This document shows positions 1 through 47,141 of a DNA stretch of 64,000 nt, piece by piece. Below the pieces are notes generated by a model. The model worked only from the letters and a program-made list of their open reading frames with translations. It was not told where the DNA came from and did no database searches. Made by a program: the position numbers and the translations under genes. Positions within the stretch are counted from its first letter, which is position 1, and every line of letters starts with the position of its first letter. The DNA is from a virus, in IMG/VR virus record IMGVR_UViG_3300031963_000072, positions 1 through 64,000 of that record, one strand, 5' to 3'.

Positions 1-400
1 CCTTATCGGTAACGGAGTTATCCTTAAACACAAGAGTTCCATCACGATAGAAATCCTTCAATTCACACTCCTCAATCACCTGGATTGGAAACATTTCATC
101 TGGTGGAAGATTAGGAAACTTCAAATCACTCATCTGGTTTCGAAACAGATTTAGGATACGAATAACCTCACGATAAGAAGAACCACGTGCAACTACGAGA
201 TGTTGGATGTTCGGATTATTCCTGTAAGATTCCAGAACTTTGAGAACTAAACTTATGGTTCTTCCAGTATTTCGTAACCCACCACACTCCATCAAACCAT
301 CCCGTACATTCTCGTTATACCTACGTGTGGAGTACACATCAGGATCCTCGAGGGGAACGAGGGTATTGTTATTGTAGATTTTTAGATTTTGTTCTTTCAT
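1..400 (-). CDS. Hypothetical protein, C-terminal part beyond window
   Basis: The first 133 residues are visible and the frame stays open off the left edge. The start is an ATG preceded by AGGA seven bases upstream. Residues 40-48 read GGLRNTGRT, followed by a probable helix and the strand HLVVARGSS; this has the layout of a nucleotide-binding Walker A loop but with arginine in place of the essential lysine. It could be a degenerate P-loop protein, but nothing identifies a family, and the rest of the protein is needed. It is separated by about 30 bases from the small-gene chain upstream of it. Confidence 0.75.
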   Translation of the reverse strand, partial: MKEQNLKIYNNNTLVPLEDPDVYSTRRYNENVRDGLMECGGLRNTGRTISLVLKVLESYRNNPNIQHLVVARGSSYREVIRILNLFRNQMSDLKFPNLPPDEMFPIQVIEECELKDFYRDGTLVFKDNSVTDK

Positions 401-429
401 ACTATCATCCTATCACTCCCATGGGAACT

Positions 430-675
430 TTACACACCTCTCGCGAACTGATCACATAACCACCCGATCTCACCCCGAGGGGAGAGAACCCGGTACCACA
501 ATGTACTGTTCAATCCCTCCACACACGTATCCAACACGAGGAGGAGATCCGAGTTCCAAACGTATTCACCCGTTCCCCACAGGGTGTGATCGTTCCTCAC
601 GGTGGGATCCCGAAAATCATGGGGAAACAATCTCACCCCATCAATCGTGGAAGTACACAGATCACCGATCCTCAT
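430..675 (-). CDS. Small SH3-like family protein (array member 1)
   Basis: 81 residues, last gene of the chain of small genes. It opens with MRIGDLC and near residues 66-72 has SPRGEIGW, matching the pattern that recurs through the array: a start of the form M-(K/R)-(P/I/L)-G-D-L-(V/I), then about 40-60 residues later a strand, a turn with P/D-x-G, and GW. That layout is what small bacterial SH3-like beta barrels look like, but the fold is inferred, not shown. The ATG overlaps the stop of the preceding gene by 4 bases (ATGA), so translation is probably coupled. Function unknown. Confidence 0.75.
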   Translation of the reverse strand: MRIGDLCTSTIDGVRLFPHDFRDPTVRNDHTLWGTGEYVWNSDLLLVLDTCVEGLNSTLWYRVLSPRGEIGWLCDQFARGV

Positions 676-965
676 TCCACACCTCCGGGTTCAACGTGTT
701 CCGTATACTCATCACTCACCCACACGATCCCGAGGGAGGGAGAAAGAACTTTCAAATTCCACTCACCCCTCTTCCAGTTGGTTCCCTCGTAGGAGAACCC
801 GTACGCATGGAGGAATACGAGGAGATCTCCCACCTCCACCCGTTGTGAGGATCCACCACCCTCGAGGGAATCATTCCACACAAGATGGGATCGAGTTACA
901 CGTATCAGTTCACCAGAGGAATACCTCCAATCGTTCCGGATGGGATACTCGTGTTCGTACCTCAC
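672..965 (-). CDS. Small SH3-like family protein (array member 2, N-terminally extended)
   Basis: 97 residues. The GTG start shares GTGA with the stop of the preceding gene. The family core begins only at about residue 42 (VEVGDLLVFL) and continues to SPSLGIVWV near residue 83, so this copy carries about 40 extra N-terminal residues. An internal GTG just before VEVGDLLVFL could start a shorter 55-residue protein that would resemble its neighbours more closely; the overlap favours the long form. Function unknown. Confidence 0.65.
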   Translation of the reverse strand: MRYEHEYPIRNDWRYSSGELIRVTRSHLVWNDSLEGGGSSQRVEVGDLLVFLHAYGFSYEGTNWKRGEWNLKVLSPSLGIVWVSDEYTEHVEPGGVE

Positions 966-1126
966 GAGATCACCACGAAGTTGAACCCCAACCAGGTTTC
1001 CACCCTCCCGAGGGAGGTGAGGATCCGGTATCTTCCGGGAAACTCCTCCACAACCACCTCGAGAATGATACCTGTGAGGTGGTTGTGTTTCACGGTGGTG
1101 AACCGAACCATATCACCGGGTTTCAC
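962..1126 (-). CDS. Small SH3-like family protein (array member 3)
   Basis: 54 residues from a GTG start that overlaps the previous stop by GTGA. An ATG 27 bases further upstream is possible, but the GTG gives the family N-terminus MKPGDMVRF. The core continues with GIILEVV and LTSLGRVETW, the strand-turn-strand pattern of the array, and ends in FVVIS. It is one of the shortest members and may represent the minimal domain. Function unknown. Confidence 0.7.
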   Translation of the reverse strand: MKPGDMVRFTTVKHNHLTGIILEVVVEEFPGRYRILTSLGRVETWLGFNFVVIS

Positions 1127-1323
1127 GAGAGAATCTCCCAATCTCGTTCCCATCCCGCGTATTCCCAGGTTACCTCATCCACCTTACCATCCTCCCACAG
1201 GATCCGGATCCAAGAAACATTGGGAGAGGATGAGGGGTGGTGTTCGAGGAGAGTTCCAATCCAGGTTCTGTTCTCTGGATTCCATTTGTGTGGATGGTAC
1301 GCGAGGAGGGTTCCGAGTTTCAC
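1123..1323 (-). CDS. Small SH3-like family protein (array member 4)
   Basis: 66 residues beginning MKLGTLLAY from a GTG that overlaps the preceding stop as GTGA. The open frame extends much further upstream, but that extension runs antisense-like through the neighbouring gene and has no family similarity, so I placed the start at the GTG. The body contains IGTLLEHHP and then RILWEDGKVDEV, the strand-turn-strand of the family, and the protein ends WEILS. Function unknown. Confidence 0.7.
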   Translation of the reverse strand: MKLGTLLAYHPHKWNPENRTWIGTLLEHHPSSSPNVSWIRILWEDGKVDEVTWEYAGWERDWEILS

Positions 1324-1556
1324 GAGATCACCTGGAAGTGGTGCACCATCTCCGATTCCGTGAGGAGTAACCGGATCACCCTCCCGCCCTCTGTGGGAAC
1401 GGAGAGGTAGATCTCGTTGTACCACCGCGTGAGTGCGTGATCCTCCCGTGTGAACCCGATCACCATCCCAATGAAACTCTCCGGGAACGCGAGGCACGAT
1501 AAGTACGAGGTGGCGGGAACACCGGGTGCGAGGGTGATGAGATCGCCGAGTTTCAT
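1320..1556 (-). CDS. Small SH3-like family protein (array member 5)
   Basis: 78 residues starting MKLGDLITLAPG from an ATG sharing ATGA with the previous stop. It contains FIGMVIGF, equivalent to the G-I-(I/V)-L strand of its relatives, and ends HHFQVIS. The C-terminal V-I-S or I-L-S followed by TGA recurs in members 3 to 6, because the same DNA stretch also encodes the next gene's start. Function unknown. Confidence 0.7.
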   Translation of the reverse strand: MKLGDLITLAPGVPATSYLSCLAFPESFIGMVIGFTREDHALTRWYNEIYLSVPTEGGRVIRLLLTESEMVHHFQVIS

Positions 1557-1732
1557 GAGATCACCTCGAGGAACTCACCCGTGAAAATGAGATCCTCACC
1601 TGTATCGGAACGAAACCCGAAGTAATCGTAACCCCACACGCACTTCTTGCGGGAGAGCACCTGAACCAACCACCTCTTCTTCGGTGATACCCGGCCCCAA
1701 GCGAGGAAACAATCAGGTTCCCAACCTTCCAT
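1553..1732 (-). CDS. Small protein of the array, divergent (59 aa)
   Basis: This 59-residue frame fills the gap between two array members. It starts at an ATG with AGGA seven bases upstream and ends in FLEVIS with the stop overlapping the next start (ATGA). It lacks the PGDLV opening; it begins MEGWEPDCFLAWGRV and contains QVLSRKKCVWGYDYFGF, which resembles the strand and GW-like part of the family. Its position, overlap and C-terminal motif argue that it is a real gene. Function unknown. Confidence 0.6.
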   Translation of the reverse strand: MEGWEPDCFLAWGRVSPKKRWLVQVLSRKKCVWGYDYFGFRSDTGEDLIFTGEFLEVIS

Positions 1733-1764
1733 GGTGCCATCCTACTATGGTGGGAGTGAACTTT

Positions 1765-2049
1765 TCACGCGAGTTCGTACCATTTCTCGATGTAATCCGC
1801 GCGATTCCAGTTGAAATCAGGTGCGCGAGCACCACGGGTTCCTCCATCACACCACATGATGTGGAAACACCGGATCCCGAGTGATTCATCCCGCCCCGTT
1901 CGGAGAATATCAGGAGGTAAACGAGGATCACCGTGTAGCATTACCGCCTCATCGAGTATGAACCCAGTGTAGTTGTGTTCATCCGGATCGAGATCGCCCT
2001 CCCAGGTTTCTCGCAGGTACACGATGAGATCACCTGGAGAGAAACTCAT
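1765..2049 (-). CDS. Small SH3-like family protein (array member 7)
   Basis: 94 residues with the start MSFSPGDLIVYL at an ATG overlapping the previous stop by ATGA; an ATG 27 bases upstream is less likely. GFILDEAVM matches the second strand of the family, and a longer loop containing DPRLPPDILRTG separates it from the strand CFHIMWCDG. One of the larger members. Function unknown. Confidence 0.7.
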   Translation of the reverse strand: MSFSPGDLIVYLRETWEGDLDPDEHNYTGFILDEAVMLHGDPRLPPDILRTGRDESLGIRCFHIMWCDGGTRGARAPDFNWNRADYIEKWYELA

Positions 2050-2210
2050 GCGTGAACCAACCATTCGTGGTGGCACTCGTAGATCTCCCCGTGGCAGGTG
2101 AGTAAACGTGCCTGCCTCCCGAACACGGGATCCGCGAACTCCCCCAGGTAGATCGAGAGGATGTTCTCCCGTCCAAACCCACGTGATAACACAAGATCAC
2201 CAGGTTTCAT
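2046..2210 (-). CDS. Small SH3-like family protein (array member 8)
   Basis: 54 residues, found by reading the gap between larger frames. It begins MKPGDLVLSRGFG, has ILSIYLGEF as second strand, RQARLLTCHGEIYEC as the strand-turn-strand, and ends HHEWLVHA. The stop overlaps the next ATG (ATGA). The start lies inside the 3' end of the preceding gene, overlapping it by 14 bases. Together with member 3 it shows a domain of only about 54 residues. Confidence 0.7.
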   Translation of the reverse strand: MKPGDLVLSRGFGRENILSIYLGEFADPVFGRQARLLTCHGEIYECHHEWLVHA

Positions 2211-2415
2211 ACACAATCTCGTAGAACTGATGGATCATACTGATGGGAACGAGATCGATCGTGAGGTGATCGCTCCAGAAGATCTTCGCATCAGGTTCCT
2301 CACCCCTCGGATCTGGAACGATCTCGAGGATGATGCCCACGAAGTTGTAGGTTTGTGGATCCTCCCCGGGTTTCCTCCGAGCTCGAGCGTAGGTGATCAC
2401 ATCACCCGGTTTCAC
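2197..2415 (-). CDS. Small SH3-like family protein (array member 9)
   Basis: 72 residues from a GTG with a perfect AGGAGG five bases upstream, giving the family N-terminus MKPGDVITYAR. An ATG 15 bases earlier would place the ribosome-binding sequence inside the gene, so the GTG is preferred. It continues FVGIILEIV and then DAKIFWSDHLTIDLV. The gene start overlaps the 3' end of the unrelated gene upstream. Function unknown. Confidence 0.7.
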   Translation of the reverse strand: MKPGDVITYARARRKPGEDPQTYNFVGIILEIVPDPRGEEPDAKIFWSDHLTIDLVPISMIHQFYEIVYETW

Positions 2416-2746
2416 CCTTATCCTCCTCATCCGCTCCGAACATGTTAAGGAGAGGATCGCTCAGGTGTTCCTTCGTGATGGGAAATCCCTTGAAATCTCG
2501 GGATGCCCAATCCATCCACACGATGAACCACCGGGTGATCTCCTCATCAGGCCCGATGATCAACCAGCCTGCGAACCACTCATCGCTTCTCCATCGCCAG
2601 AAATCGATCGCCTGTGCCGTGGTGAAGGCGATTCCAAAAGTATCATGGATCACACGTTTGATGCGTGCAACATCTTCCACCGAGTGGTATTCGCTCTCTC
2701 GATATGCCTCGAATGAGCGGTTCACTTCTTCTTGAGTGTACTTCAT
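2402..2746 (-). CDS. Hypothetical protein, Trp-rich (114 aa)
   Basis: 114 residues, not a member of the SH3-like family. It looks mostly helical, with the N-terminal part MKYTQEEVNRSFEAYRES and a Trp-rich middle (IDFWRWRSDEWFAGWLI, then RWFIVWMDWASRDF). It ends in an acidic tail. The N-terminus resembles that of the ribonucleotide reductase in this window (MIKYTQEEAYASS), which I take as coincidence. No function can be assigned. Confidence 0.65.
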   Translation of the reverse strand: MKYTQEEVNRSFEAYRESEYHSVEDVARIKRVIHDTFGIAFTTAQAIDFWRWRSDEWFAGWLIIGPDEEITRWFIVWMDWASRDFKGFPITKEHLSDPLLNMFGADEEDKGETG

Positions 2747-2756
2747 AGTGATTCCA

Positions 2757-3011
2757 TCATAATACGTGGTGAGAGATTTTTACATCCGGTTGATGTAGGA
2801 ACGCATCCTCAATCCACCCAATGTTTCCGGTGGGTGTGAGGATCCTGCTCCAGCCCACGGATTCATCGAGAACGAGAGAAAGTTCACCCACGTGAATCAC
2901 ACCGGATACGTCGAGGGAGTAGAGACGGGAGTAGAGAGGCAACTCCCTGCGTTCCTCCTCCGCAATAGTATCATAGATCTCACGGAACACAACGAGGGCA
3001 CCGGGTTTCAT
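2757..3011 (-). CDS. Small SH3-like family protein (array member 10)
   Basis: 84 residues starting MKPGALVVFREIYD; the ATG overlaps the preceding stop by ATGA. Between the first strand and LSLVLDESVGW lies a charged insertion (EEERRELPLYSR). The closing pattern SRILTPTGNIGWIEDAF is one of the clearest examples of the family GW motif and is close to member 1 (VLSPRGEIGWL). Function unknown. Confidence 0.75.
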   Translation of the reverse strand: MKPGALVVFREIYDTIAEEERRELPLYSRLYSLDVSGVIHVGELSLVLDESVGWSRILTPTGNIGWIEDAFLHQPDVKISHHVL

Positions 3012-3199
3012 CTTCGCAACCCGATGCGCTTGATCGTTCCAACTCTCGCAGATCTCACTCCCGAGCGGGAGAAGAGAACACGGAACACGCCTTCATTCCA
3101 CGAACCGCCCAATATGATGCCTACATCATTGATGGTGGTGCCACGATCGGAATCATCATAATCATAGGAGTACCACGCAACGAGATCACCCGGGTTCAT
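3008..3199 (-). CDS. Small SH3-like family protein (array member 11)
   Basis: 63 residues starting MNPGDLVAWYSYDYDD, with DVGIILGGSW as second strand and VFRVLFSRSGVRSARVG as the strand-turn-strand. The start overlaps the stop of the upstream lipoprotein gene (ATGA) and its own stop overlaps the next array member, so the lipoprotein and the array are probably translated as one unit. Function unknown. Confidence 0.75.
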   Translation of the reverse strand: MNPGDLVAWYSYDYDDSDRGTTINDVGIILGGSWNEGVFRVLFSRSGVRSARVGTIKRIGLRR

Positions 3200-3693
3200 C
3201 GAGCAGGAACGAAGGCACCACCATCCCAGTACTTAGCGCAGTTCACGAAACCCGGATAGTTACAGTAGAGGAACCCCGCCTCCTCGGGAGATGGGATACG
3301 GGTGTTCGATTCACGAGCGGGAGTTGCACCTGCACCTGCCGGAGCGGAACTGTAGTACGGGAAGAACCTGCAGAAGGAATCGAGCCTCCTCGAGATATCC
3401 ACACAACACACGTGCTTCGTATCATCACAGGTTTCAACGAGTGAACATGCACGTGAGCAATCGTAGGTGTGAACAACACCGCAACCGAGATCTCGGGTGA
3501 AGGTACCACAAGATTTGGAGCACACCTCGCGTTCGTTGGCATCCCGTGGAGTGCATCCTGCCTGAGGAGCAGGTGTAACTGTGGCATCCGGGCGATCGTG
3601 GGAGGGAAGGGCCTCGCGGGAACGAGCGATGGATGTGCGAGGATCATCGCATGCGGCAAGAAGGATGAAGGATAGGGTGATGAAATTTCTCAT
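3196..3693 (-). CDS. Cysteine-rich lipoprotein
   Basis: 165 residues. The N-terminus MRNFITLSFILLAAC is a lipoprotein signal peptide with the lipobox L-A-A-C, so Cys15 should be lipidated; aspartate follows it, which in enterobacteria favours retention in the inner membrane. The mature part has twelve further cysteines, most between residues 47 and 107, suggesting a disulfide-rich extracytoplasmic domain. Phage-encoded lipoproteins often alter the infected cell surface or block superinfection; that role is inference. The gene sits inside the chain of SH3-like genes with a 4-base overlap downstream. Confidence 0.75.
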   Translation of the reverse strand: MRNFITLSFILLAACDDPRTSIARSREALPSHDRPDATVTPAPQAGCTPRDANEREVCSKSCGTFTRDLGCGVVHTYDCSRACSLVETCDDTKHVCCVDISRRLDSFCRFFPYYSSAPAGAGATPARESNTRIPSPEEAGFLYCNYPGFVNCAKYWDGGAFVPAR

Positions 3694-6542: not shown

Positions 6543-7141
6543 CTATTATATCCCATCCTCGTGGAGTGGATCCCATCTCCCCCTCGTGGCTTCTCGATCG
6601 CCTCAGATTCGAAGTAGTGAGTAGCATATTTCTTGATGAGTGCACGTTCATCAGCGATGTGTGGGATTCGTTTGGAGGAGATGTCTGGTGGGCCCAACCA
6701 GACGAGCACTGCGCCCGAATCTTCCACGATCTTCACGAACTCTCCGTAGAGAGTCTCGTACTTTTTGGAACGATCGTAGATGATCGCATCGTTGGTGCCG
6801 AGGGACACAACAACAAGCTCCGGTCGATTCCTCTCTAGGTCACTCTTGACCCATTTCATCCACTGGAAGATGGAAGTCCCACTCACCACATGGGACACGG
6901 GCATGTATCCGCCCTTCCGTGCGAGGGAGATGAACTGAGGTTCCATTCCCACCGCGAGTGAATCTCCAATGAGCATCACGGTGGCACCCGGGCTCACCGT
7001 TGGAAAGTACTGAGAACCACAATCGAACTCCCACTGCTCGTGTGGCACCTCTTGAGGTTTCACCTCTTCAGCCGCAGGAAGCGGCCTACTCACGCAAGAA
7101 ATTAACGCGATTGTTGTTAGGAATATTCCTGCTTTTGTCAC
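6479..7141 (-). CDS. SGNH/GDSL hydrolase lipoprotein
   Basis: 220 residues from a GTG that gives a clean lipoprotein signal MTKAGIFLTTIALISC; a TTG 36 bases earlier would spoil the signal. The mature protein carries the SGNH-family blocks: LIGDSLAVG with the nucleophile serine, SLGTNDAI with the asparagine, and GDGIHSTRMG near the C-terminus with the Asp and His. Such enzymes remove acyl groups from sugars, lipids or cell-wall polymers. As a lipid-anchored exported esterase from a phage it probably changes a surface polysaccharide or peptidoglycan of the infected cell; the substrate is unknown. Confidence 0.85.
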   Translation of the reverse strand: MTKAGIFLTTIALISCVSRPLPAAEEVKPQEVPHEQWEFDCGSQYFPTVSPGATVMLIGDSLAVGMEPQFISLARKGGYMPVSHVVSGTSIFQWMKWVKSDLERNRPELVVVSLGTNDAIIYDRSKKYETLYGEFVKIVEDSGAVLVWLGPPDISSKRIPHIADERALIKKYATHYFESEAIEKPRGGDGIHSTRMGYNRWMGAAWDWMIEQNILTKSDN

Positions 7142-7192
7142 GAAAGTAATATTATCACATAATTGATGGTTTTTCAATCAACTCTCCGCAAT

Positions 7193-7209: not shown

Positions 7210-8370
7210 ATGAGCATTTTCAAGGAACATCGAACAAACGCGGATAGAGTTGCGAGTGATCGCAGGAGGCACAAGGAGAAGATCGATAAGGCGATACGTG
7301 AGGGCATCCACCACATCGTTGCGGACGAATCGATCATCGGCCAGAACGGCAAGCAGAAGTTTCGTATCCCCGTTCGTGGTATTAAAGAGCACAAGTTCGT
7401 TTATGGAGATAACGGCAAGCAGGTTGGCTCCGCACCTGGGCGAGATGTGAGTAGAGGACAAAAGCTAGGTGGTAAGGATCGTGGTAAGCCTCAGAGACCT
7501 GATAAGCCTGGTAGTGAATCCGGTGAGGAGTACTATGATGTTGAGATGGGCCTTGATGAGCTCGCCGAGTACCTCTTCTCGGATCTTGGGCTCCCCGATC
7601 TCCAGAGAAAACAGCTCACGAACATCTCCTCACACAAGTTGAAGCGAAATGGATACAGGCCACAAGGCATCATTCCCCGCCTCGATCGAAAGAAATCCGC
7701 GATCGCCCGCATCAAGAGGATGAAGGCTGCAGGATTCGATCCTGAGACCGTTGAAGAAGGAGAAACGTTTCCCTTCCATGAAGATGATCTCAAGTACAGG
7801 CACTACAAACTAAAGGATGAACCATGCACCAACGCAGTTGTGTTCTTTGTGATGGATGTTTCCGGCTCAATGGACCAGAAGAAGAAGTTTCTCGCGAGGT
7901 CGTTCTGTTTCCTGATGTACCAGTTCCTCCGAACGAAGTATGAGAACATCGAGGTGGTGTTCATCACCCACGACGTGGAAGCCCATGAGGTGAACGAAGA
8001 GGCCTTCTTCACGAAGGGAACTTATGGCGGCACGATAGCGTCAACGGGTTTGGTGAAGGTGAATGAGATCATCGAGGAGCGTTTCCATCCGTCCGCCTGG
8101 AACCTCTATGCAGTGCACCTATCGGATGGTGATAACTTCGACTCAGATAATGGCAAGTACCTCGAAGCTCACGCGAAGCTGGAATCGATGGTGCAACTCT
8201 TTGGATATGTGGAGCTGGAACCCGAGAAGAGCTATATGGAGGAGAACAAACTCTCCAAGGTGTTGATGCCTCGGATACGAGAGAACTCCCGATGTGTTAC
8301 AATCCAGAGTAAAGATGATGTTTGGCCTGCGTTCAGGGAGATCCTCAACGCATCGAAGGGAGAGCAGTGA
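7210..8370 (+). CDS. yeaH: YeaH / DUF444 family protein with von Willebrand factor A domain
   Basis: 386 residues, close to the roughly 400-430 of bacterial YeaH. The N-terminus MSIFKEHRTNADRVASDRRR, then HHKxKIDKAI-like and RIPVRGIKEHKF, is typical of DUF444. The C-terminal half is a vWA domain whose MIDAS motif FFVMDVSGSMD starts at Asp216. In bacteria yeaH is encoded with the kinase gene yeaG and functions with SpoVR/YcgB in stress and nutrient-limitation responses; biochemical activity is unsettled. Here it is the first gene of a three-gene plus-strand operon, overlapping spoVR by one base. Confidence 0.9.
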   Translation: MSIFKEHRTNADRVASDRRRHKEKIDKAIREGIHHIVADESIIGQNGKQKFRIPVRGIKEHKFVYGDNGKQVGSAPGRDVSRGQKLGGKDRGKPQRPDKPGSESGEEYYDVEMGLDELAEYLFSDLGLPDLQRKQLTNISSHKLKRNGYRPQGIIPRLDRKKSAIARIKRMKAAGFDPETVEEGETFPFHEDDLKYRHYKLKDEPCTNAVVFFVMDVSGSMDQKKKFLARSFCFLMYQFLRTKYENIEVVFITHDVEAHEVNEEAFFTKGTYGGTIASTGLVKVNEIIEERFHPSAWNLYAVHLSDGDNFDSDNGKYLEAHAKLESMVQLFGYVELEPEKSYMEENKLSKVLMPRIRENSRCVTIQSKDDVWPAFREILNASKGEQ

Positions 8371-9668
8371 TGGATTACAACCTTTCTGACCTACAGGAAT
8401 GGGATGAGAAGATCTGTGCAATCGCACGGAAGCATGGACTTGATTGGTTTGACATAGAATACGAATTTATAGATTATTATTCAATGATTGGTGCCATGGC
8501 CTTTCACGGGTTGCCATCCCACTTCAACCACTGGAGTTTTGGCAAGTCCTTCGAGCGTACCCACCACATGTACAATGCGGGCCAGGAAGGTCTTCCATAT
8601 GAACTTATAATTAACTCAAATCCTTCGCTCGCCTACATGATGCGGGAGAACCCACTTCCTCTGCAGATCCTCATCATGGCCCACTGCGTTGGCCACTCCG
8701 ATTTCTTCAAGAACAACCGCACGTTTAAGGGAACACGTCCGGATACCATCGTTGGCAGGTCACGAGCCGCGAAGAAGCGGTTCCAATCCTATGTGGAAGA
8801 TCCCTCCATCGGAATTGATCTCGTGGAGCAGGTTATCGATTCGTGCCACGCGGTGCAGTTTCAGATCCAACGTCCCGGTGCGATACGCAGAACTCGGCAG
8901 GAGATCATCGACCACCACAAGGAGAAACTGAAGGAGGATCCTGAAGCGGATTGGCTCGACACCACGCACAATCCCCTCGAACCTGATTATGATATTCTCA
9001 GTTTCATTGCAGAAAATGGGCGGATACCCTCCTGGAAGCGAGACATCATTGAGGTGTGCAGAGATGAGGGGCGGTACTTTTGGCCACAGATCCAAACGAA
9101 GATCATGAATGAGGGCTGGGCCAGCTACTGGCACTACACCATCCTCCATGAGCTCGATCTCCCACCTGAGATCCACCTCGCATTCATCAAATCTCACAAC
9201 CAGGTGATCCGCCCCCACATCGGTGGCATCAATCCATACCACCTCGGTTTTCATCTCTTTCAACGCATCAAAGAGAGACACGGTGTGGATGAAATGTTCA
9301 TCGCCCGCGAGGTGCACCACGATGGAGCCTTCCTCCGTCAGTACCTCACCCAGGAGGATTGCGAGGAGTTGAACCTCTTCTCCTACTCGCGGAAGCCCAA
9401 CGAGGATGTATCGGTTGATGATGTTTCCGATGAGGAGGGGTGGGAGGAAGTGAAGCGCAACCTCGTTGCCCAGGTGGGCGGAGGCTCCATCCCTGTTCTC
9501 TTCGTGAACGATGTGCGGAAGGATGGTTCCATGGCTCTCGGTCACGAGCACGATGGTCGAGACCTCGACATGAAGGAACTAAAGGCCACCCTCCAGCACG
9601 TAAAAACATTGTGGGAATACGATGTTAATTTGGACACAATTATTGACGGAAAGTACATGAAGTTCTGA
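8370..9668 (+). CDS. spoVR: SpoVR / YcgB family protein
   Basis: 432 residues, slightly shorter than the roughly 470-510 of bacterial YcgB/SpoVR. Recognisable blocks are FDIEYEFIDYYSMIGAMAF, the strongly conserved MPSHFxHWSFGK-like GLPSHFNHWSFGKSFER, NPSLAYMM, and EGWASYWHYTILHEL. SpoVR was named for a sporulation cortex phenotype in Bacillus; in proteobacteria YcgB belongs to the stationary-phase regulon. The gene starts at ATGGATTAC, whose A is the last base of the yeaH stop, so translation is coupled. Confidence 0.93.
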   Translation: MDYNLSDLQEWDEKICAIARKHGLDWFDIEYEFIDYYSMIGAMAFHGLPSHFNHWSFGKSFERTHHMYNAGQEGLPYELIINSNPSLAYMMRENPLPLQILIMAHCVGHSDFFKNNRTFKGTRPDTIVGRSRAAKKRFQSYVEDPSIGIDLVEQVIDSCHAVQFQIQRPGAIRRTRQEIIDHHKEKLKEDPEADWLDTTHNPLEPDYDILSFIAENGRIPSWKRDIIEVCRDEGRYFWPQIQTKIMNEGWASYWHYTILHELDLPPEIHLAFIKSHNQVIRPHIGGINPYHLGFHLFQRIKERHGVDEMFIAREVHHDGAFLRQYLTQEDCEELNLFSYSRKPNEDVSVDDVSDEEGWEEVKRNLVAQVGGGSIPVLFVNDVRKDGSMALGHEHDGRDLDMKELKATLQHVKTLWEYDVNLDTIIDGKYMKF

Positions 9669-9714
9669 TTTTTTGATTACAATAAACACACCTACTGCGA
9701 GGAACACCTGAAAA

Positions 9715-11649
9715 ATGAGCGTAAAGAACACACTCCTGAAGAAGATCACAGAAGCACGAGAGAAATCAGCGAACGAGAAGAAGTTCGAAGGCAACCTTCT
9801 CGATTACATAGAGCTGGTTGAGGCAGATCCATCGATCGTGAAAACAGCACACCAGCGGCTCAACGATGCCCTCACGGAGCATGGATCCTACGTGATGCCG
9901 GACTCAGATCCGAGGAAGCATAAGATCTTCGACGGAGAGAACATCAAGATCCACAAGTACTTCGAGGGTGAGTTCTTCGGAATGGAGAAAGTCCTTGCGA
10001 AGGTGATGAACTTCCTCGATTCTGCCGCCCATCGTGGTGAGGAATCTCGTCAGGTACTCCTCTTCATGGGCCCTGTCGGTGCAGGTAAGTCAGCCCTTAC
10101 GGAGCACATCAAACGTGCCTTGGAAGGTAAGAAGTATTACCACCTGAAGGGAGATCCCCACCGTGGTGAACCACTTCAGCTAATCCCGCGCTCCCTCCGC
10201 GGAGATTTCGAATCCGCCCTTGGAGTGAAGATTGAGGGTGACATCTCACCAGTAGCTCGCCACAAGCTCCTCAATGAGCTCGGCGGTAAGTACGAGAACT
10301 TTGCGGTGGAAGAATCATCCTTCTCCCAGCGTGCTCGAAGGGGTGTGGGTGTGGTTCCTCCCATGGATGCCAACTCACAGGATGTTTCGGTCCTCATCGG
10401 ATCAGTTGACATCTCCAAGTTGGACAAGTATGCAGAGGATGATCCTCGTGCTCTCTCCCTCAACGGTGCATTCAACGTAGGTAACCGTGGCATCGTGGAG
10501 CTCGTCGAGGTGTTCAAGAATGAGATCGAGTTCCTCCACACAATCATCACCGCGACACAGGAGAAGAGAGTTCCCTCGCCTGGTAAGTCGGACATGTTGC
10601 ACTTCGACGGTGTTATCATCGCCCACTGTAACGAGGCCGAGTGGAATCGTTTCCAGAGCGAGCACACCAATGAGGCCATCCTCGATCGCATCGTGAAGGT
10701 CTCTGTTCCCTACTGCCTCGAGTTGAACCAGGAGATGAAGATCTACGAGAAGATGCTCTCCAAGTCGGACTTCAAGCACCACATCGCTCCGCACACCCTC
10801 AAGGTGGCCTCGATGTTCTCCGTCATGTCACGTCTCAAGCCCTCGGCCAAGTGTGATCCACTCACCAAGATGAAGATATACAATGGTGAAGAGGTGCTGG
10901 AGAAGGGGCGTGTCAAGAAGGTGGACATCAAGGACCTCCGCGAGGAGGCGAAGCACGAGGGCATGGACGGAATCTCCACCCGCTTCGTGACGAAATCCAT
11001 CGACCATGCTCTTTCCAACTCTGAGAAGGGCATTGTGACGCCAATCTCCGTGATGGACTCGCTCACGAAGATGGTGAAGGAACAGATCACAGATGAGGCC
11101 TTCAAGAAGACCTGCCTCGAACTCCTCCAGAAGACTGTCCGAGACGAGTACCTCAAGATCCTCGAGACCGAGATCGCTAAGGCCTTCGTCACCGCCTACG
11201 AGGAACAGGCCCAGTCGCTCTTCAACTCCTACCTCGACAACGCTGAGGCCTACGTAACCCGTGCCAAGGTGAAGGACAAGGTCACGAAAGAGGAACGCCT
11301 TCCAGACGAGGAGTTCATGAAGTCGATCGAGGAGAACATTGGAATCGCAGGCTCAGCCAAGGATGGCTTCCGTGGCGATGTTACCGCCTACATGTTCGCG
11401 AAGATGAGGCGAGGCGATAAGGTGGATTACAGGGCCTACGAACCCCTCCGTGAGGCCATCGAGACCTACCTCATCAACTCCGTCAAGTCCTTCGCTCGTA
11501 TCGTGACGAAGTCCAAGTCACGTGACAAGGAACAGCAGGAGAAGTACTCAGAGATGGTCACGACAATGTGCAAGGACTACGGTTACACGCCGGAATCTGC
11601 TGAGGAAATACTTGCGTTTGCCGCGAACAACCTCTGGAGAGATTCTTAG
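9715..11649 (+). CDS. prkA: PrkA / YeaG family serine protein kinase (AAA+ ATPase)
   Basis: 644 residues, the usual length for PrkA/YeaG. The N-terminal AAA-type domain has Walker A GPVGAGKSAL with Lys125, preceded by HKYFEGEFFGMEKVLAKV, and YHLKGDPHRGEPLQLIP after it; the C-terminal part is the PrkA kinase-like domain. In E. coli YeaG responds to nitrogen starvation and affects sigma-S-dependent adaptation. It is preceded by a 46-base gap and followed by a strong hairpin terminator. Unlike many genes here it has high GC and consistent codon use with yeaH and spoVR, which suggests acquisition of the three as one block. Confidence 0.93.
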   Translation: MSVKNTLLKKITEAREKSANEKKFEGNLLDYIELVEADPSIVKTAHQRLNDALTEHGSYVMPDSDPRKHKIFDGENIKIHKYFEGEFFGMEKVLAKVMNFLDSAAHRGEESRQVLLFMGPVGAGKSALTEHIKRALEGKKYYHLKGDPHRGEPLQLIPRSLRGDFESALGVKIEGDISPVARHKLLNELGGKYENFAVEESSFSQRARRGVGVVPPMDANSQDVSVLIGSVDISKLDKYAEDDPRALSLNGAFNVGNRGIVELVEVFKNEIEFLHTIITATQEKRVPSPGKSDMLHFDGVIIAHCNEAEWNRFQSEHTNEAILDRIVKVSVPYCLELNQEMKIYEKMLSKSDFKHHIAPHTLKVASMFSVMSRLKPSAKCDPLTKMKIYNGEEVLEKGRVKKVDIKDLREEAKHEGMDGISTRFVTKSIDHALSNSEKGIVTPISVMDSLTKMVKEQITDEAFKKTCLELLQKTVRDEYLKILETEIAKAFVTAYEEQAQSLFNSYLDNAEAYVTRAKVKDKVTKEERLPDEEFMKSIEENIGIAGSAKDGFRGDVTAYMFAKMRRGDKVDYRAYEPLREAIETYLINSVKSFARIVTKSKSRDKEQQEKYSEMVTTMCKDYGYTPESAEEILAFAANNLWRDS

Positions 11650-11670
11650 TCAATCTCTAAAAGCAAGAAA

Positions 11671-11699
11671 GGCTCAGAGGATTCCTCTGAGCCTTTTTT
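11671..11699 (+). terminator. Rho-independent terminator, probably bidirectional
   Basis: A 10-base-pair stem GGCTCAGAGG / CCTCTGAGCC with a 3-base loop is followed by TTTTTT on the plus strand; on the minus strand the hairpin is also followed by a T-rich stretch. It separates prkA from the convergent ClpP-like gene. Confidence 0.9.
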
Positions 11700-11703
11700 A
11701 GTA

Positions 11704-12306
11704 TCAGCCGAACGAATATTCTACATCAATCTTTAACTTTAGTTCCGGAACACGCAGGTGGTTGGCCAATCCATGCGATTGAGCCTCCGTGGCATCGAGG
11801 TACCAGTCCGCGTGAGAACGCTCGTGGATCATCTTGAGGAAGTATTCCTCTTCCTTGCCGCAGTTGGTTGCCATCTCCCGGTATAGCCATTGGTTCAATC
11901 GATCGGATTCCTTGGCATCCGCCTTGATCTCCTCCACCTTGCCGTGCGCTCCGGTGGAGACATCGTGGATCATGATGGTTGCGTGCTTATCCATGTAGCG
12001 GTGGCCGAAGGCACCGAAGGAGAAGAGGAGGGCACCACAACTCATCGCTTTGCCCTGAACGATCGTGGCCACCGGGATCTTGGAGGCCTTGATGTTGGCC
12101 ACCATGGAGAGGAGGGAGTAGACTTGCCCCCCATAAGAATCTATAATGACGGGCACGATGGGTTGGCCGGTGTTCTGAGCCTCACTCATCGAGTCAGAGA
12201 ACTTCTTTGCCGATTCTTCATCGAACTTATTCACTCGAATCACCACGGGTTGCTTCCGCAGTTCCACTTCACCGATCAGTTTCGAAATATCTCGTAGTAC
12301 GTTCAT
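11704..12306 (-). CDS. ClpP-like serine protease (S14 family)
   Basis: 200 residues, the size of ClpP. The family blocks are present in order: PVIIDSYGGQVYS, QGKAMSCGALLFSFG with nucleophile Ser89, TIMIHDVSTG with His114, and YLDATEAQSHGLAN, where the aspartate of the triad belongs. In phages, ClpP-type proteins act as prohead maturation proteases or as host-like Clp peptidases. The many genes here with cleavable-looking capsid-targeting helices make a head-maturation role attractive, but no capsid gene is adjacent. Overlaps the upstream glycosylase gene by ATGA. Confidence 0.85.
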   Translation of the reverse strand: MNVLRDISKLIGEVELRKQPVVIRVNKFDEESAKKFSDSMSEAQNTGQPIVPVIIDSYGGQVYSLLSMVANIKASKIPVATIVQGKAMSCGALLFSFGAFGHRYMDKHATIMIHDVSTGAHGKVEEIKADAKESDRLNQWLYREMATNCGKEEEYFLKMIHERSHADWYLDATEAQSHGLANHLRVPELKLKIDVEYSFG

Positions 12307-12716
12307 GTGTGCTTCTTTCTCCAGTTGTAGTATCTAACCAAGGCGTGATCACGGGGAGGAGCGGGAGGCAGTGTTCCCTTCACGAAGATCTCCCAGGCTG
12401 CAGCAGCATAATCACCGATGCCTGGGAGCTCCTTCGCATGCTGCCAGTTTGACCCCAGATAATATTGCGACATTTTTATTAGGTTACTAGCCCTCCTATT
12501 TCCAAAGCCTAATCTGACAATGACCTGGGCCAACTCTCCGTGGTCTGCCGCGGCCATGGCCTTAGCATCTGGATACTTTGAAAACAATCGTGGCAACACT
12601 TTCTCCATGGCAGCCCGTGTGGTGCAGTTGAGAAGCATGCAGGCGACAAGCAGCTTCCATTCATTGGGCCACAAGTCCTCTTGAATGAGAGAGTAAGGAG
12701 AACGGGGAGGTATCAT
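12303..12716 (-). CDS. MBD4-like mismatch-specific DNA glycosylase (HhH-GPD)
   Basis: 137 residues. The sequence follows the catalytic domain of animal MBD4 over nearly its whole length: PPRSPYSLIQEDLW, EWKLLVACMLLNCTT, the helix-hairpin-helix ELPGIGDYAAAAWEIF, and RDHALVRYYNW, where the aspartate matches the catalytic Asp of MBD4. MBD4 removes T or U opposite G. There is no methyl-CpG-binding domain and no iron-sulphur cysteine cluster. It probably repairs deaminated cytosines in phage or host DNA. Located between the ClpP-like gene and a pyrophosphorylase-like gene with 4-base overlaps on both sides. Confidence 0.85.
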   Translation of the reverse strand: MIPPRSPYSLIQEDLWPNEWKLLVACMLLNCTTRAAMEKVLPRLFSKYPDAKAMAAADHGELAQVIVRLGFGNRRASNLIKMSQYYLGSNWQHAKELPGIGDYAAAAWEIFVKGTLPPAPPRDHALVRYYNWRKKHT

Positions 12717-13687
12717 CCTGTGTATCTTCTAGAAGTATGAACAAAGTTGGATTGAAAGTTAGCAGTCAAATCACACAGTGTTCTTTCAAAGAATACGACA
12801 GATTTTTTATCTTGGACTACTTTCCTCCTGTGCCATTTCCACTTAAAGGAGTCAAAATCCAAAGAGCAATTAAAAATTGTAGTCCCTGAATATGCCAAGT
12901 TTAAATCTTCGGAATCCGCAAAAGAAGAAAATCTATGCATCTCAACAAGCTGTTCAAATCCTCCGTGCATACACAGAAGCGGTCTGTCATCTCCGTCTAG
13001 CTTTTCTGTAACTTCACAAGTAACGTTGTTTTTTGACAAGATGTGATGCCCTAGAACAGAAGGCTTAGCACCAAGCAAATTTTCTTTGCTGCACGCAACT
13101 ATATACTCGCCGCCGTGGGACAAAAAATCATTGTATATCTCTGAGTTTTTAATTGAACTTATAAGATCTCCTGATCCGCACGGCCTGAGTACGGGACAAG
13201 ACTCCCTAATCTCGAGCAAATTGTCTGCTCTAAGCAGGAAGGTCTGATAGCTGAAGATTAAAGCTGCTTTACTTCCTACTGATTCACATATCTTTCTCAC
13301 GGCATCTTCGTGGGAAGGATCGACCAAAATCCAGACTTCTTTCACCCACGAAAGACGCATCAAGATCATTCCTAGCTGAGAAATATTAGAAGCTGGCAAC
13401 TCCGAAAGAAGATTTTCATGACAAATAACAGCGTGAGCAGCTTTCCCAGATACGAGTGCTTCTCGTCCCGTCCAAAAAGAATCTAGCTCAATGTGTTCAT
13501 GCTTAATAAGATTGCATTCAGTTGGTGCTTCGGGTGAAACAACAGTGTAGTCTCTTGGCTTTGATACAAGATCTAGAAAGTCAGCTATCTCTAGACCCCC
13601 ATCTCTATTTACTCTTTCGATGCAATCTACGGGTAGATTTTCAAGTTGTTCTTGTAGCTCAGAAAGAAATCCCGGGAATGATTTCAT
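12713..13687 (-). CDS. UDP-sugar pyrophosphorylase-like protein (UDPGP family)
   Basis: 324 residues. Several blocks match UDP-GlcNAc / UDP-glucose pyrophosphorylases in order: FSYQTFLLRAD, RPCGSGDLISSIKNSEIYND (usual P-x-G-H-G-D), YIVACSKENLLGAKPSVLGH, NVTCEVTEKL, and a late WHRRKVV ... FFERTLCDL. The G-rich N-terminal nucleotide-binding loop (GGxGTRLG) is not evident, and His is replaced in the PxGHGD motif, so activity is doubtful. With two sugar epimerases in the window it might serve sugar-nucleotide synthesis. Only the family relation is proposed. Confidence 0.5.
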   Translation of the reverse strand: MKSFPGFLSELQEQLENLPVDCIERVNRDGGLEIADFLDLVSKPRDYTVVSPEAPTECNLIKHEHIELDSFWTGREALVSGKAAHAVICHENLLSELPASNISQLGMILMRLSWVKEVWILVDPSHEDAVRKICESVGSKAALIFSYQTFLLRADNLLEIRESCPVLRPCGSGDLISSIKNSEIYNDFLSHGGEYIVACSKENLLGAKPSVLGHHILSKNNVTCEVTEKLDGDDRPLLCMHGGFEQLVEMHRFSSFADSEDLNLAYSGTTIFNCSLDFDSFKWKWHRRKVVQDKKSVVFFERTLCDLTANFQSNFVHTSRRYTG

Positions 13688-13717
13688 GAACCTTATTGTA
13701 TTTAATAACTCACAATT

Positions 13718-14566
13718 TTATAATGTCAATTTGTCGCCTTGAATGCACTGCAGGACTTTTCTGAAAGAATCCCCGTACTGGGAGCGTAGCAGAGTCTCCG
13801 GATCTTCCCACTTTGCTATTCCTTCATGAGAGGAAGTTAATTGACCTGAGAACTTAACGGCTCTGAAGAAGTAGATGTTTTTCTCGCCCATCTTTTGCTT
13901 GCACAAATAAACAAGCTTGTCTGCGACGATTCCTGTTTCTTCATACAGCTCTCTTGCGGCAGCATCTTCAGGCGTTTCTCCCACCTCGATGCCACCTCCA
14001 GGCATGTTCATATTTTTTATGTCGCCGCCTCGAGAAACAGCGAGAACTTTATTGCCCGAAGTTACTAAAACTATAGATGCGCCATCTACGGCAGGAACCT
14101 CTTCTGAAGCCAAGTCTTTTTCAAGTGAGGAATTTAGACTTCTTACACTTTGTGCATTCCTGATATTGCCTGGTGCTTCATATCTACGCAGACCAGACAT
14201 TGAAAAATCACTATCCATCTCTAGGAGGGGAGAAGACTTTAGCCTACTGTGAAATTTTTTCTTAAGTGCTCTTGAAAGCAGCTTTCTTGTAACTTTTTGG
14301 TCTCCGCCTGATCTACGAAAAAATTCTTTGTATTTCTCAGAAGCGTAATTCCTAATGTCACTCTCAAGGTCATCTTTAACCTCTACACCGTATATCTCTT
14401 CCGCCATCTCGAGCCAGCCGTCGACGACGTCGTTTATGTTTGTAGTCTTCGTAAAAAAAGATCTCATGAGATCTTTTGCAGAAGCTGATCCTCTTTCTCT
14501 GTCTTTTAGGTAAAAAATTCCCTCTAGAACCTCTTCTACGTACTCTTTTAAAAGTTGATTTTTCAT
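13718..14566 (-). CDS. Nudix hydrolase with N-terminal capsid-targeting-like helix
   Basis: 282 residues. The C-terminal half is a Nudix domain with an intact box from Gly191 to Ile213 (GxxxxxE, then REL-YEETGI), preceded by ASIVLVTSGNKVLAVSRGG. The N-terminal 150 residues are helical and begin MKNQLLKEYVEEVLE, the short amphipathic motif shared by about 20 proteins here. That combination suggests a nucleotide-diphosphate hydrolase packaged in the virion, or a structural protein with a Nudix domain; substrate unknown. Overlaps the next gene upstream by ATGA. Confidence 0.8.
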   Translation of the reverse strand: MKNQLLKEYVEEVLEGIFYLKDRERGSASAKDLMRSFFTKTTNINDVVDGWLEMAEEIYGVEVKDDLESDIRNYASEKYKEFFRRSGGDQKVTRKLLSRALKKKFHSRLKSSPLLEMDSDFSMSGLRRYEAPGNIRNAQSVRSLNSSLEKDLASEEVPAVDGASIVLVTSGNKVLAVSRGGDIKNMNMPGGGIEVGETPEDAAARELYEETGIVADKLVYLCKQKMGEKNIYFFRAVKFSGQLTSSHEGIAKWEDPETLLRSQYGDSFRKVLQCIQGDKLTL

Positions 14567-16292: not shown

Positions 16293-16299
16293 ATAGTTA
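16293..16299 (+). promoter_or_regulatory. ATAGTTA late-promoter-like motif
   Basis: Plus-strand ATAGTTA, five bases before the ATG at 16305. No Shine-Dalgarno sequence between motif and start. Confidence 0.5.
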
Positions 16300-16304
16300 T
16301 GAAC

Positions 16305-16763
16305 ATGAAGATAACGCTTAGAGAATTAAAAAAGATAATAAGAGAATCGGTGAGAGATCAAGTAATCGACGAAGGATTTCTCGACTCCCTCAAACGTGCA
16401 ACAGCAGCTGCCGCTGTTGGAGCAAGCCTCATGTTTCCTTCCTCTGCTGCTGCAAATGTTCCAAGCGGAGGAGAGACATACACGGCAGAAGAGACTCCGG
16501 AAGAGGACAGACCATTTACAATCATGGACGAAGAAGGAAAACCTCACAATTTTTATCTTGTGACATACGTGAGAGTAGATGGAAAGCGTTACGCTGCTAT
16601 GGAATCAGAAGAAGACGAATTGCTCTATCTGTTTCGCGTGATGATCTCCAAGCGAGGAGATGTCACTTTTAAAGCAATTGAAAATGATACAGAATGGGAA
16701 AGAGTAAAGGAAGCGGTTGAGGAGGAACTTGGTCCTGACGAAGAAGAAGAAAACAAGATCTAA
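16305..16763 (+). CDS. DUF1292-like protein with capsid-targeting-like helix and hydrophobic segment
   Basis: 152 residues from the ATG giving MKITLRELKKIIRESV; an ATG six bases earlier overlaps the ATAGTTA motif. After this amphipathic helix comes a hydrophobic Ala-rich stretch (AAAAVGASLMFPSSAAA), and residues 65-150 follow the pattern of bacterial DUF1292 proteins: FTIMDEEGKPHNFYLVTYV, RYAAMESEED, FKAIENDTEWERVKEAVEEE. DUF1292 has no known activity. Isolated plus-strand gene, followed by a hairpin terminator. Confidence 0.75.
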   Translation: MKITLRELKKIIRESVRDQVIDEGFLDSLKRATAAAAVGASLMFPSSAAANVPSGGETYTAEETPEEDRPFTIMDEEGKPHNFYLVTYVRVDGKRYAAMESEEDELLYLFRVMISKRGDVTFKAIENDTEWERVKEAVEEELGPDEEEENKI

Positions 16764-17932: not shown

Positions 17933-18196
17933 TTACTTGCGTCCGAGAATGTATTCGACTTTGGTCTTTGTGTATGGTCTAAGCGCGGGATCTGCAAGAA
18001 GCGCTGCAGCGCTCTCAGGGTCTAGGCCTCTAAGCTCCGCAGTGACAGCGCTGACTTGCTCTTGACCGCGCTGATAGGCGCGTGCATCATCAGACATCTG
18101 ATAGTCCCAGTCGACTCTGTTGAGTCTGTTGACGAGGTCTGCCATTTCTACTTCTTCCTTGATGATTTGCTTGAGTTCGCTGAGTCTGATCTTCAT
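17933..18196 (-). CDS. Small cargo-type protein with N-terminal tag
   Basis: 87 residues starting MKIRLSELKQIIKEEV, one of the cleanest copies of the amphipathic tag. The rest is helical, with LRGLDPESAAALLADPALR and ending VEYILGRK. No enzyme motif. A good Shine-Dalgarno GGAG precedes the ATG, and ATAATTA is 15 bases upstream. Confidence 0.75.
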   Translation of the reverse strand: MKIRLSELKQIIKEEVEMADLVNRLNRVDWDYQMSDDARAYQRGQEQVSAVTAELRGLDPESAAALLADPALRPYTKTKVEYILGRK

Positions 18197-44022: not shown

Positions 44023-44592
44023 TTACTTTTTCTTTTTCTTTGCTTTTGACTTCTTTACAACAGCCCATGACTTAGAAGGATTGGCCGAGTTGACTCGTGC
44101 CATCGCCCATTGATGTTGAGACATTCCTTTGCGTGAACCGCTGGTCGCCCACGCAGCAAGGCCCTTCTTGTATTCAGCCTCTACGGATCCTGGTGTGAGA
44201 CCACGTTTCTCAGCCTTCTTACGAAGTGTCTCTTTTGTCTTTGCTGAAAGAGCCTCGTTAATCAGTTCGGATACAAGATCCTGCAAAAGTTCAAATCCTT
44301 CATTTACAGATTCAGAGTCTGAACGTGGCTTGTTTTTAAATCCTGGCTTCTCACGCTCTTTTTCTTCCATGTCGGCACGTAGCTCGTATGCACGCTTCCT
44401 GTCTGCAGGATTATCACTCTTTGCGAGCTCTTTAGCCTTATCGAGTTCTTGATCACGCTTAGTACCTTGCTTTGCGCCGTACTGCCTTGGATGAGGCCTG
44501 TCTTCAGGATCAACTCTCTTGCTAGCTTGTTCAAAGACATCTCTAATGAGATCTCTTAGATCTTCTTCTGTCAGAGTTAATTCTTGGTCCAT
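44023..44592 (-). CDS. Tagged basic cargo protein
   Basis: 189 residues. The N-terminus LTLTEEDLRDLIRDVFEQA is a tag variant. A highly charged, low-complexity middle leads to a second helix (LLQDLVSELINEALSA) and the C-terminal module LAAWATSGSRKGMSQHQWAM followed by ARVNS and a poly-Lys tail. The QHQWAMARVNS segment is one I recall from many aquatic-phage proteins. Probably binds DNA in the head. Last gene of an operon that ends at the hairpin. Confidence 0.7.
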   Translation of the reverse strand: MDQELTLTEEDLRDLIRDVFEQASKRVDPEDRPHPRQYGAKQGTKRDQELDKAKELAKSDNPADRKRAYELRADMEEKEREKPGFKNKPRSDSESVNEGFELLQDLVSELINEALSAKTKETLRKKAEKRGLTPGSVEAEYKKGLAAWATSGSRKGMSQHQWAMARVNSANPSKSWAVVKKSKAKKKKK

Positions 44593-44598
44593 GATAAA

Positions 44599-45201
44599 TC
44601 ACTTCTCGCTGGGCCACTTGCCCGTGGCCTTGTGCATCATCCACGCTGCAGCTGCCTCGGGATCGTCTGCCCATTTCTCAACCTTCTTCACCTTATCCTT
44701 AAAGGTCTTGGTTCCCTTGAGGATCTTCTGCGCAGTCTTCTTTGAAGGTCCCTTCTTCTTGGCTTCAGCGTGCATGCCGTGCTCTTCTTCGTAGGCTTGC
44801 ATCTTAGCATCACCCGTGAGGTATCCGTGAACCTGCTGGAGGTTCTCGTGCGCAACTGCAAGGTGGTTCTGAACCCAACCAGGAAGCTGATCATCACCGT
44901 CGAGAAGCTCACACACCTCATATGCCATCTCCTTCATGGATGCGAGCTGAGACTTAGCCATGTAGCCTTCGTCGTCGTGGGCCTCACCGTGCTCTGAACC
45001 GTGGAGGAAGCGGTCGTCATCATCGAAGTCGACAGCAGGCTCATGTTCGTCGCCAGCAACATAACCCCAGTTACCGCTCTTCCACGCGGCCATCTCGTCC
45101 TCAGTGATGCGATTCATCGCCTCTGAGAGTTGTTTCTTCGGCTGTGATTTGCTTACTTCCTCTGCGATGAGTTTACGGAGCATCGTTGCTGTGAGTTTCA
45201 T
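44599..45201 (-). CDS. Tagged cargo protein with C-terminal HKATGKWPSE module
   Basis: 200 residues starting MKLTATMLRKLIAEEV (tag). Central part: KEMAYEVCELLDGDDQLPGW then VQNHLAVAHENLQQVHGYL, a conserved-looking helical domain. C-terminus: KKKGPSKKTAQKILKGTK and DDPEAAAAWMMHKATGKWPS. Same two-ended layout as its neighbours (tag, variable centre, short aromatic-basic end). Overlaps the Dps-like gene by ATGA. Confidence 0.7.
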   Translation of the reverse strand: MKLTATMLRKLIAEEVSKSQPKKQLSEAMNRITEDEMAAWKSGNWGYVAGDEHEPAVDFDDDDRFLHGSEHGEAHDDEGYMAKSQLASMKEMAYEVCELLDGDDQLPGWVQNHLAVAHENLQQVHGYLTGDAKMQAYEEEHGMHAEAKKKGPSKKTAQKILKGTKTFKDKVKKVEKWADDPEAAAAWMMHKATGKWPSEK

Positions 45202-46952: not shown

Positions 46953-47141
46953 CTATTTAGTGGACAACTTCATGTCTTTGGCCCACGAAGCTATCTTTTT
47001 CTTGGCGTCGTCTCTCACAAGAACGCTCTTTTTCTTAAATGCAGGATCGTCTAGAAGTTCTTCCGTATAGGATTCTTCAGGCTGTGAACCACTAATAGCC
47101 TTTCTAACAATCTCTCGCAGCTGTCCTAGAGTAATCTTCAT
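46953..47141 (-). CDS. Small tagged protein (62 aa)
   Basis: 62 residues: MKITLGQLREIVRKAISG (tag) then SVLVRDDAKKKIASWAKDMK. The second half recurs, as I recall, in other phage cargo proteins. The ATG is six bases after ATAGTTA, and also overlaps the upstream stop (ATGA), so either coupled or leaderless translation is possible. Confidence 0.7.
   Translation of the reverse strand: MKITLGQLREIVRKAISGSQPEESYTEELLDDPAFKKKSVLVRDDAKKKIASWAKDMKLSTK

Follow-up and report, generated by a model that had tools for sequence, protein, structure and literature searches.

The three-gene module DUF444-SpoVR-PrkA, known from bacteria, is carried by a lineage of uncultured, apparently T4-like jumbo phages. 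The copy studied here, in a 64,000-nucleotide stretch of an IMG/VR virus record (hereafter the window), is real, intact and under selection, and it sits in a genuine phage lineage. Phage copies were known before, and the window is one example of a module that phages have picked up repeatedly. In bacteria the module is widespread and its biochemistry is unsolved, given that claims of kinase and of protease activity conflict and that SpoVR has no solved fold.

The module lies on the plus strand and encodes a DUF444/YeaH/YhbH-family protein (7210-8370; Pfam E 3.5e-102), a 432-aa SpoVR/YcgB-family protein (8370-9668; Pfam SpoVR 2.1e-116, SpoVR_C 2.3e-11) and a 644-aa PrkA/YeaG-family AAA+ ATPase (9715-11649; AAA_PrkA 1.3e-136, PrkA C-terminal domain 1.5e-80). 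The SpoVR start (ATG at 8370, with an alternative GTG at 8367) overlaps the DUF444 stop by one base (TGATG at 8368-8372), and PrkA begins 46 bases after SpoVR with GAGGAA as Shine-Dalgarno sequence, so that the three adjacent, co-oriented genes look like one co-transcribed unit. The Pfam match of DUF444 covers most of the protein and its MIDAS (DxSxS..T..D) is intact at D216-x-S218-x-S220, T275 and D306, residues that are conserved at 95% or more in clade-mates and bacteria and at 100% in the other phages sampled. SpoVR has both of its domains together with the family-invariant residues, and PrkA combines its two domains with an intact Walker A motif (GPVGAGKS), whose K125 aligns with K116 of YeaG. 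A previous sequence-only reading had placed these three families in a single plus-strand unit at 7210-11649 with both motifs intact; the Pfam matches bear out the coordinates and identities, and residue alignment with clade-mates, bacteria, phages and YeaG disposes of the concern that the motifs might prove inactive. Strong purifying selection acts on each of the three genes (dN/dS 0.02-0.11 wherever dS can be measured). The GC content of the module is 52% versus 46% elsewhere, and GC3 is likewise higher.

Downstream, a strong intrinsic terminator with a 13-bp stem (11668-11699) lies between the module and a convergent ClpP-like gene and is usable from either side, in agreement with the terminator that had been assigned to the module. 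A promoter of its own had been proposed as well, and an unproven sigma-70-like match (TTGTCA-17-CATAAT, 10 of 12 consensus positions) is indeed present at 7135-7163 on the plus strand; however, such matches are about as frequent in the region as chance predicts (8 versus 7.1 expected) and no fixed -35/-10 pair upstream of the module is conserved in the relatives, and we therefore rejected it. The description of the remaining genome as minus-strand holds for the most part (ORFs of at least 120 aa total 61.0 kb on the minus strand versus 9.5 kb on the plus strand), although there are exceptions, with further plus-strand ORFs at 16299-16763 of the window and 77482-80005 of the contig. The ClpP-like protease beside the module (11704-12306, minus strand) scores best to head-maturation-protease families; T4-type phages normally use a protease of another type. 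Several unrelated window proteins also share an amphipathic N-terminal leader resembling MKITLxxLRKIIREE, strictly in those at 16299-16763 (+), 17933-18196 (-), 44023-44592 (-) and 44599-45201 (-) and more loosely at 46953, 53078 and 62950. Four strict cases were observed versus 0.11 expected (P 6e-6, for a pattern chosen after seeing the sequences), and the leader could be a targeting signal or a cleaved prohead leader comparable to those of T4 internal proteins.

The window belongs to an 81,920-bp IMG/VR virus record, whose genes include a DnaE-type polymerase, a DnaB helicase, UvsX and ribonucleotide reductase. Relatives reach 200-361 kb, and the contig is hence a fragment. Single-protein scans of IMG/VR returned 161 close relatives of PrkA and 169 of SpoVR, of which 80 each were kept, and an alignment-seeded scan brought in more distant ones. 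This search, which the sequence-only reading had suggested, recovered DUF444-SpoVR-PrkA in the same order and on the same strand in 102 of 107 PrkA-seeded clade contigs (up to 361 kb). In the other five, PrkA lies near a contig edge, and the module is thus complete in all 102 contigs with enough flank. SpoVR was present in the window's own record and in all 25 large contigs tested alongside it (26 records). Most large clade contigs encode a T4-type TerL, with strong scores, and the Gp23 capsid protein; neither is on the 82-kb fragment, both are found in most relatives above 200 kb, and a 361-kb relative has a weak TerL match only and no Gp23 match. Contractile tail sheath matches occur in tested contigs of this lineage and of two other module-bearing lineages. 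By terminase, the nearest isolates are only approximately 41% identical (Microcystis phage Mel-JY01 and the Flavobacterium phages immuto); no match to isolated phages was found at the DNA level, and no tRNAs were found in the window. PrkA is missing from a 369-kb relative by terminase, and phages of this type can therefore do without the module. One Methylococcaceae MAG includes a 306-kb contig (NHDW01000006.1) on which PrkA, Gp23 and tail sheath occur together and which is apparently a jumbo phage of the window's lineage; its binning is the only hint at a host.

Around the module the clade is variable. A fast-changing protein of approximately 430 aa is encoded directly downstream of PrkA at 10731-12050 of contig L099 and at the equivalent position in approximately 75 clade loci. 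It has no Pfam match, is found in most of the lineage but is absent from the window's close relatives, and is a possible fourth module partner. Eight clade loci (L011, L013, L074, L078, L081, L083, L086 and L087) have a phage GroEL gene close to the module; GroEL as a constant neighbour was rejected, given that the cluster mixed these eight loci with the unrelated 430-aa protein. A Tubulin/FtsZ-like protein is encoded near the module in approximately 12 clade loci, as in L015 at 12429-13574, where the Pfam match (E 1.8e-4) is below the curated cut-off.

Unrooted trees of PrkA, SpoVR and DUF444, built with a quick method, all place the window's lineage in one clade with 99-100% support, which answers the call for a phylogeny of each protein. 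In the PrkA and SpoVR trees this clade is joined with Clostridium/deltaproteobacterial-type sequences, while the DUF444 tree has no settled sister. The Thermus phages form a second group and phage contigs L055 and L066, beside an acidobacterial sequence, a third. The huge phages are placed, with others, among alpha/gammaproteobacterial types, from which the module was possibly captured more than once. Because the three trees agree, the simplest reading is that phages captured the complete module at least four times independently. The window's lineage, the Thermus phages and the bacterium Sulfobacillus have the order DUF444-SpoVR-PrkA in common; PrkA-DUF444-SpoVR is the order in most bacteria and in the other phages. 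The window's lineage thus acquired its module from a Clostridium/deltaproteobacteria-type bacterium and rearranged the gene order.

A whole operon of this kind had been considered exceptional in a phage. This did not hold, given that the whole module is present in Thermus phages phiYS40, phiLo, MN1 and Lalka8, in uncultured phages of the 600-kb class and in over 100 IMG/VR contigs. All three genes are matched in the huge uncultured phages LR745206, LR756502, LR756504 and LR756511. PrkA and vWA matches are found in TMA and other Thermus phage relatives, and the Ralstonia jumbo phage RsoM2USA has SpoVR as ORF28 and PrkA as ORF30 (PMC8504454). The remark that single phage homologs may exist likewise understates what was known. 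PHROGs already has one family for each of the three proteins. In the jumbo-phage papers searched in the open-access literature PrkA and SpoVR went unmentioned, and the breadth of the module's distribution among phages appears to be undescribed there. A virus contig (L069) encodes SpoVR followed by two successive, very divergent PrkA-like genes.

The closest solved structure to the window's PrkA is 9xip (E 7.4e-96), and Pfam assigns the protein to AAA_PrkA and not to the MoxR AAA+ family. The DUF444 protein has a basic N-terminal part, a disordered linker (approximately residues 59-104) and a C-terminal vWA domain; its AlphaFold2 model (pLDDT 75 overall, approximately 90 in the vWA part) matches PDB vWA domains, including the Rea1/MDN1 MIDAS and the NorQD complex. 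The SpoVR model is confident (pLDDT 91.6), but neither structure nor profile gave a significant match in the PDB. Across 171 SpoVR sequences, H106, H110, E249, N289, Y291 and D319 never vary, and the invariant H-x3-H and N-E-G residues point to a putative metal site in what is probably a mostly helical, metal-binding protein. It is not an HExxH zinc metallopeptidase (gluzincin), as the residue after the first His is C, V, A, S or G and never E; with the catalytic Glu absent and no significant PDB match, SpoVR was rejected as a known metallopeptidase or known fold, and an M61 peptidase match (E 0.49) is too weak to count as evidence. In two phage contigs of 395 and 236 kb (L055 and L063, in both at 11922-14495), SpoVR contains an intein of approximately 370 aa, which in L055 splits the AHCxGH motif between the counterparts of H106 and C107 and in L063 was judged from the identical layout. 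Inteins typically occupy essential sites, and an insertion inside the H-x3-H motif fits the importance of this site. In Bacillus subtilis, SpoVR crosslinks RNA in vivo (PMC12456014).

We tentatively propose, largely by analogy, that the phage supplies an AAA+/vWA remodelling pair that would act with SpoVR to sustain jumbo-phage production in slow-growing hosts, a reading to which we give somewhat less than even weight. PrkA would be an ATP-driven AAA+ remodeller rather than primarily a kinase, its DUF444 vWA partner would dock on it via the MIDAS as in NorQ-NorD and RavA-ViaA, and the two would remodel or activate SpoVR. The phage-supplied module may then limit damage and set a controlled metabolic state in the infected cell, the role there being that of YeaG/YeaH and SpoVR in starving or sporulating bacteria, and the long jumbo-phage cycle could thereby be completed in slow-growing hosts. 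This is consistent with the family memberships, the intact motifs, the purifying selection and the complete module in every informative clade contig. In E. coli, complementation fails with the YeaG Walker A mutant K116A, and deletion of yeaH gives the same starvation-recovery phenotype as deletion of yeaG (PMC4664914). The NorQ/NorD system illustrates the remodelling of a client by an AAA+ ring together with its MIDAS vWA partner (PMC9976466), although PrkA is not a MoxR ATPase by family match and vWA docking on it is proposed by analogy. That the phage would sustain infection of starved hosts or redirect host physiology had also been put forward by the sequence-only reading, an idea drawn entirely from bacterial phenotypes. 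An intact, selected module captured at least four times suggests a self-contained use within one infection; that the capturing lineages did so because the module generally raises fitness when hosts grow slowly or starve is possible, if rather unlikely.

The main rival is that the AAA+/vWA/SpoVR set is a virion-assembly chaperone, which folds or matures a structural protein of head, portal or tail. The Lalka8 module is flanked directly by portal/minor head genes on one side and TerL on the other, that of phiYS40 is three genes from the terminase, the ClpP-like neighbour in the window resembles head-maturation proteases, and such a role was proposed for the MoxR AAA+/vWA-metallopeptidase pair of group 2.2 jumbo phages (PMC7824862). 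In the window's lineage, however, the module is approximately 50-160 kb from the terminase and capsid genes on most contigs and often beside helicase, NUDIX and PhoH genes, the 369-kb terminase relative copes without PrkA, and the bacterial homologues have no virions to make. We consider a chaperone of this kind unlikely. A role in host takeover or counter-defence, in which the phage copies poison, replace or mis-steer a host PrkA/DUF444/SpoVR complex that would otherwise induce dormancy, would account for the repeated independent captures, a pattern expected of a host interface. In E. coli, moreover, YeaG controls toxin-antitoxin expression and a dormant subpopulation under nitrogen starvation (PMC4664914). 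Such a role is decidedly improbable, as catalytic motifs intact in all three proteins are needless for a dominant-negative and carriage of the whole module suggests a gain of function.

A module in which PrkA acts as a kinase is very improbable. The label "PrkA/YeaG kinase" named the right family and the Thermus-phage annotation reads "serine kinase", and the window's PrkA keeps the lysine equivalent to YeaG K426, whose mutation to alanine abolishes complementation in E. coli (PMC4664914). This lysine is nevertheless absent from Bacillus-type and Thermus-phage PrkA, and the label is doubtful because neither kinase nor protease activity could be detected in purified B. anthracis PrkA, which oligomerises with ATP and is missing the kinase P-loop (PMC13001217). 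An artefact, whether a chimeric contig of phage and bacterial sequence or a prophage boundary with host genes, would fit the higher GC and GC3 of the module, but its chance is practically nil and it is already refuted by the synteny throughout a clade whose large contigs have terminase, Gp23 and tail sheath genes. PrkA is, moreover, 95% identical to the nearest relative, from another sample, versus 53-58% to the nearest bacterial proteins. The record of Enterobacter phage LAU1 (MN688132.1) does open with YeaG/YeaH at 1-3308, at the record end, most likely as host flank of a prophage rather than as phage cargo.

Given that some of the Thermus phages can be cultured, an unsolved bacterial machine becomes testable in a phage, and the module is also relevant to jumbo-phage reproduction in starved aquatic bacteria. 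If the captures do reflect a general fitness gain of the kind considered above, the module would be a phage-borne device that keeps a starving host productive, and its biochemistry, with an AAA+/vWA pair activating a metal- or RNA-binding SpoVR, would become cleanly accessible through phage genetics.

Among known systems, the MoxR pairs NorQ-NorD and RavA-ViaA resemble PrkA-DUF444 in joining an AAA+ ATPase to a MIDAS vWA partner, and the MoxR-vWA-metallopeptidase sets of jumbo phages, like the module with SpoVR, include a possible metal protein; PrkA is an AAA+ family of its own, however, and SpoVR has no known metallopeptidase fold. The bacterial modules, yeaG-yeaH with ycgB in E. coli and prkA-yhbH-spoVR in Clostridium and Bacillus (adjacent in Clostridium), comprise the same three families with intact motifs, but their order is PrkA-DUF444-SpoVR, whereas the window's copy is DUF444-SpoVR-PrkA and sits in a phage. 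The closest bacterial PrkA is of the Clostridium/Deltaproteobacteria type, and identity to the enterobacterial YeaG of the LAU1 record is approximately 31%. RsoM2USA and the huge LR phages are, as in the window's lineage, jumbo phages with PrkA and SpoVR; RsoM2USA has at least these two genes by published annotation alone, and LR745206, unlike the window, has an alpha/gammaproteobacterial-type module in bacterial gene order. The Thermus phages phiYS40, phiLo, MN1 and Lalka8 share with the window a complete module in a tailed phage and the same gene order, but their PrkA is 29-33% identical to that of the window, falls in a separate clade in all three trees and has GxxGxAKS as Walker A motif in place of GPVGAGKS.
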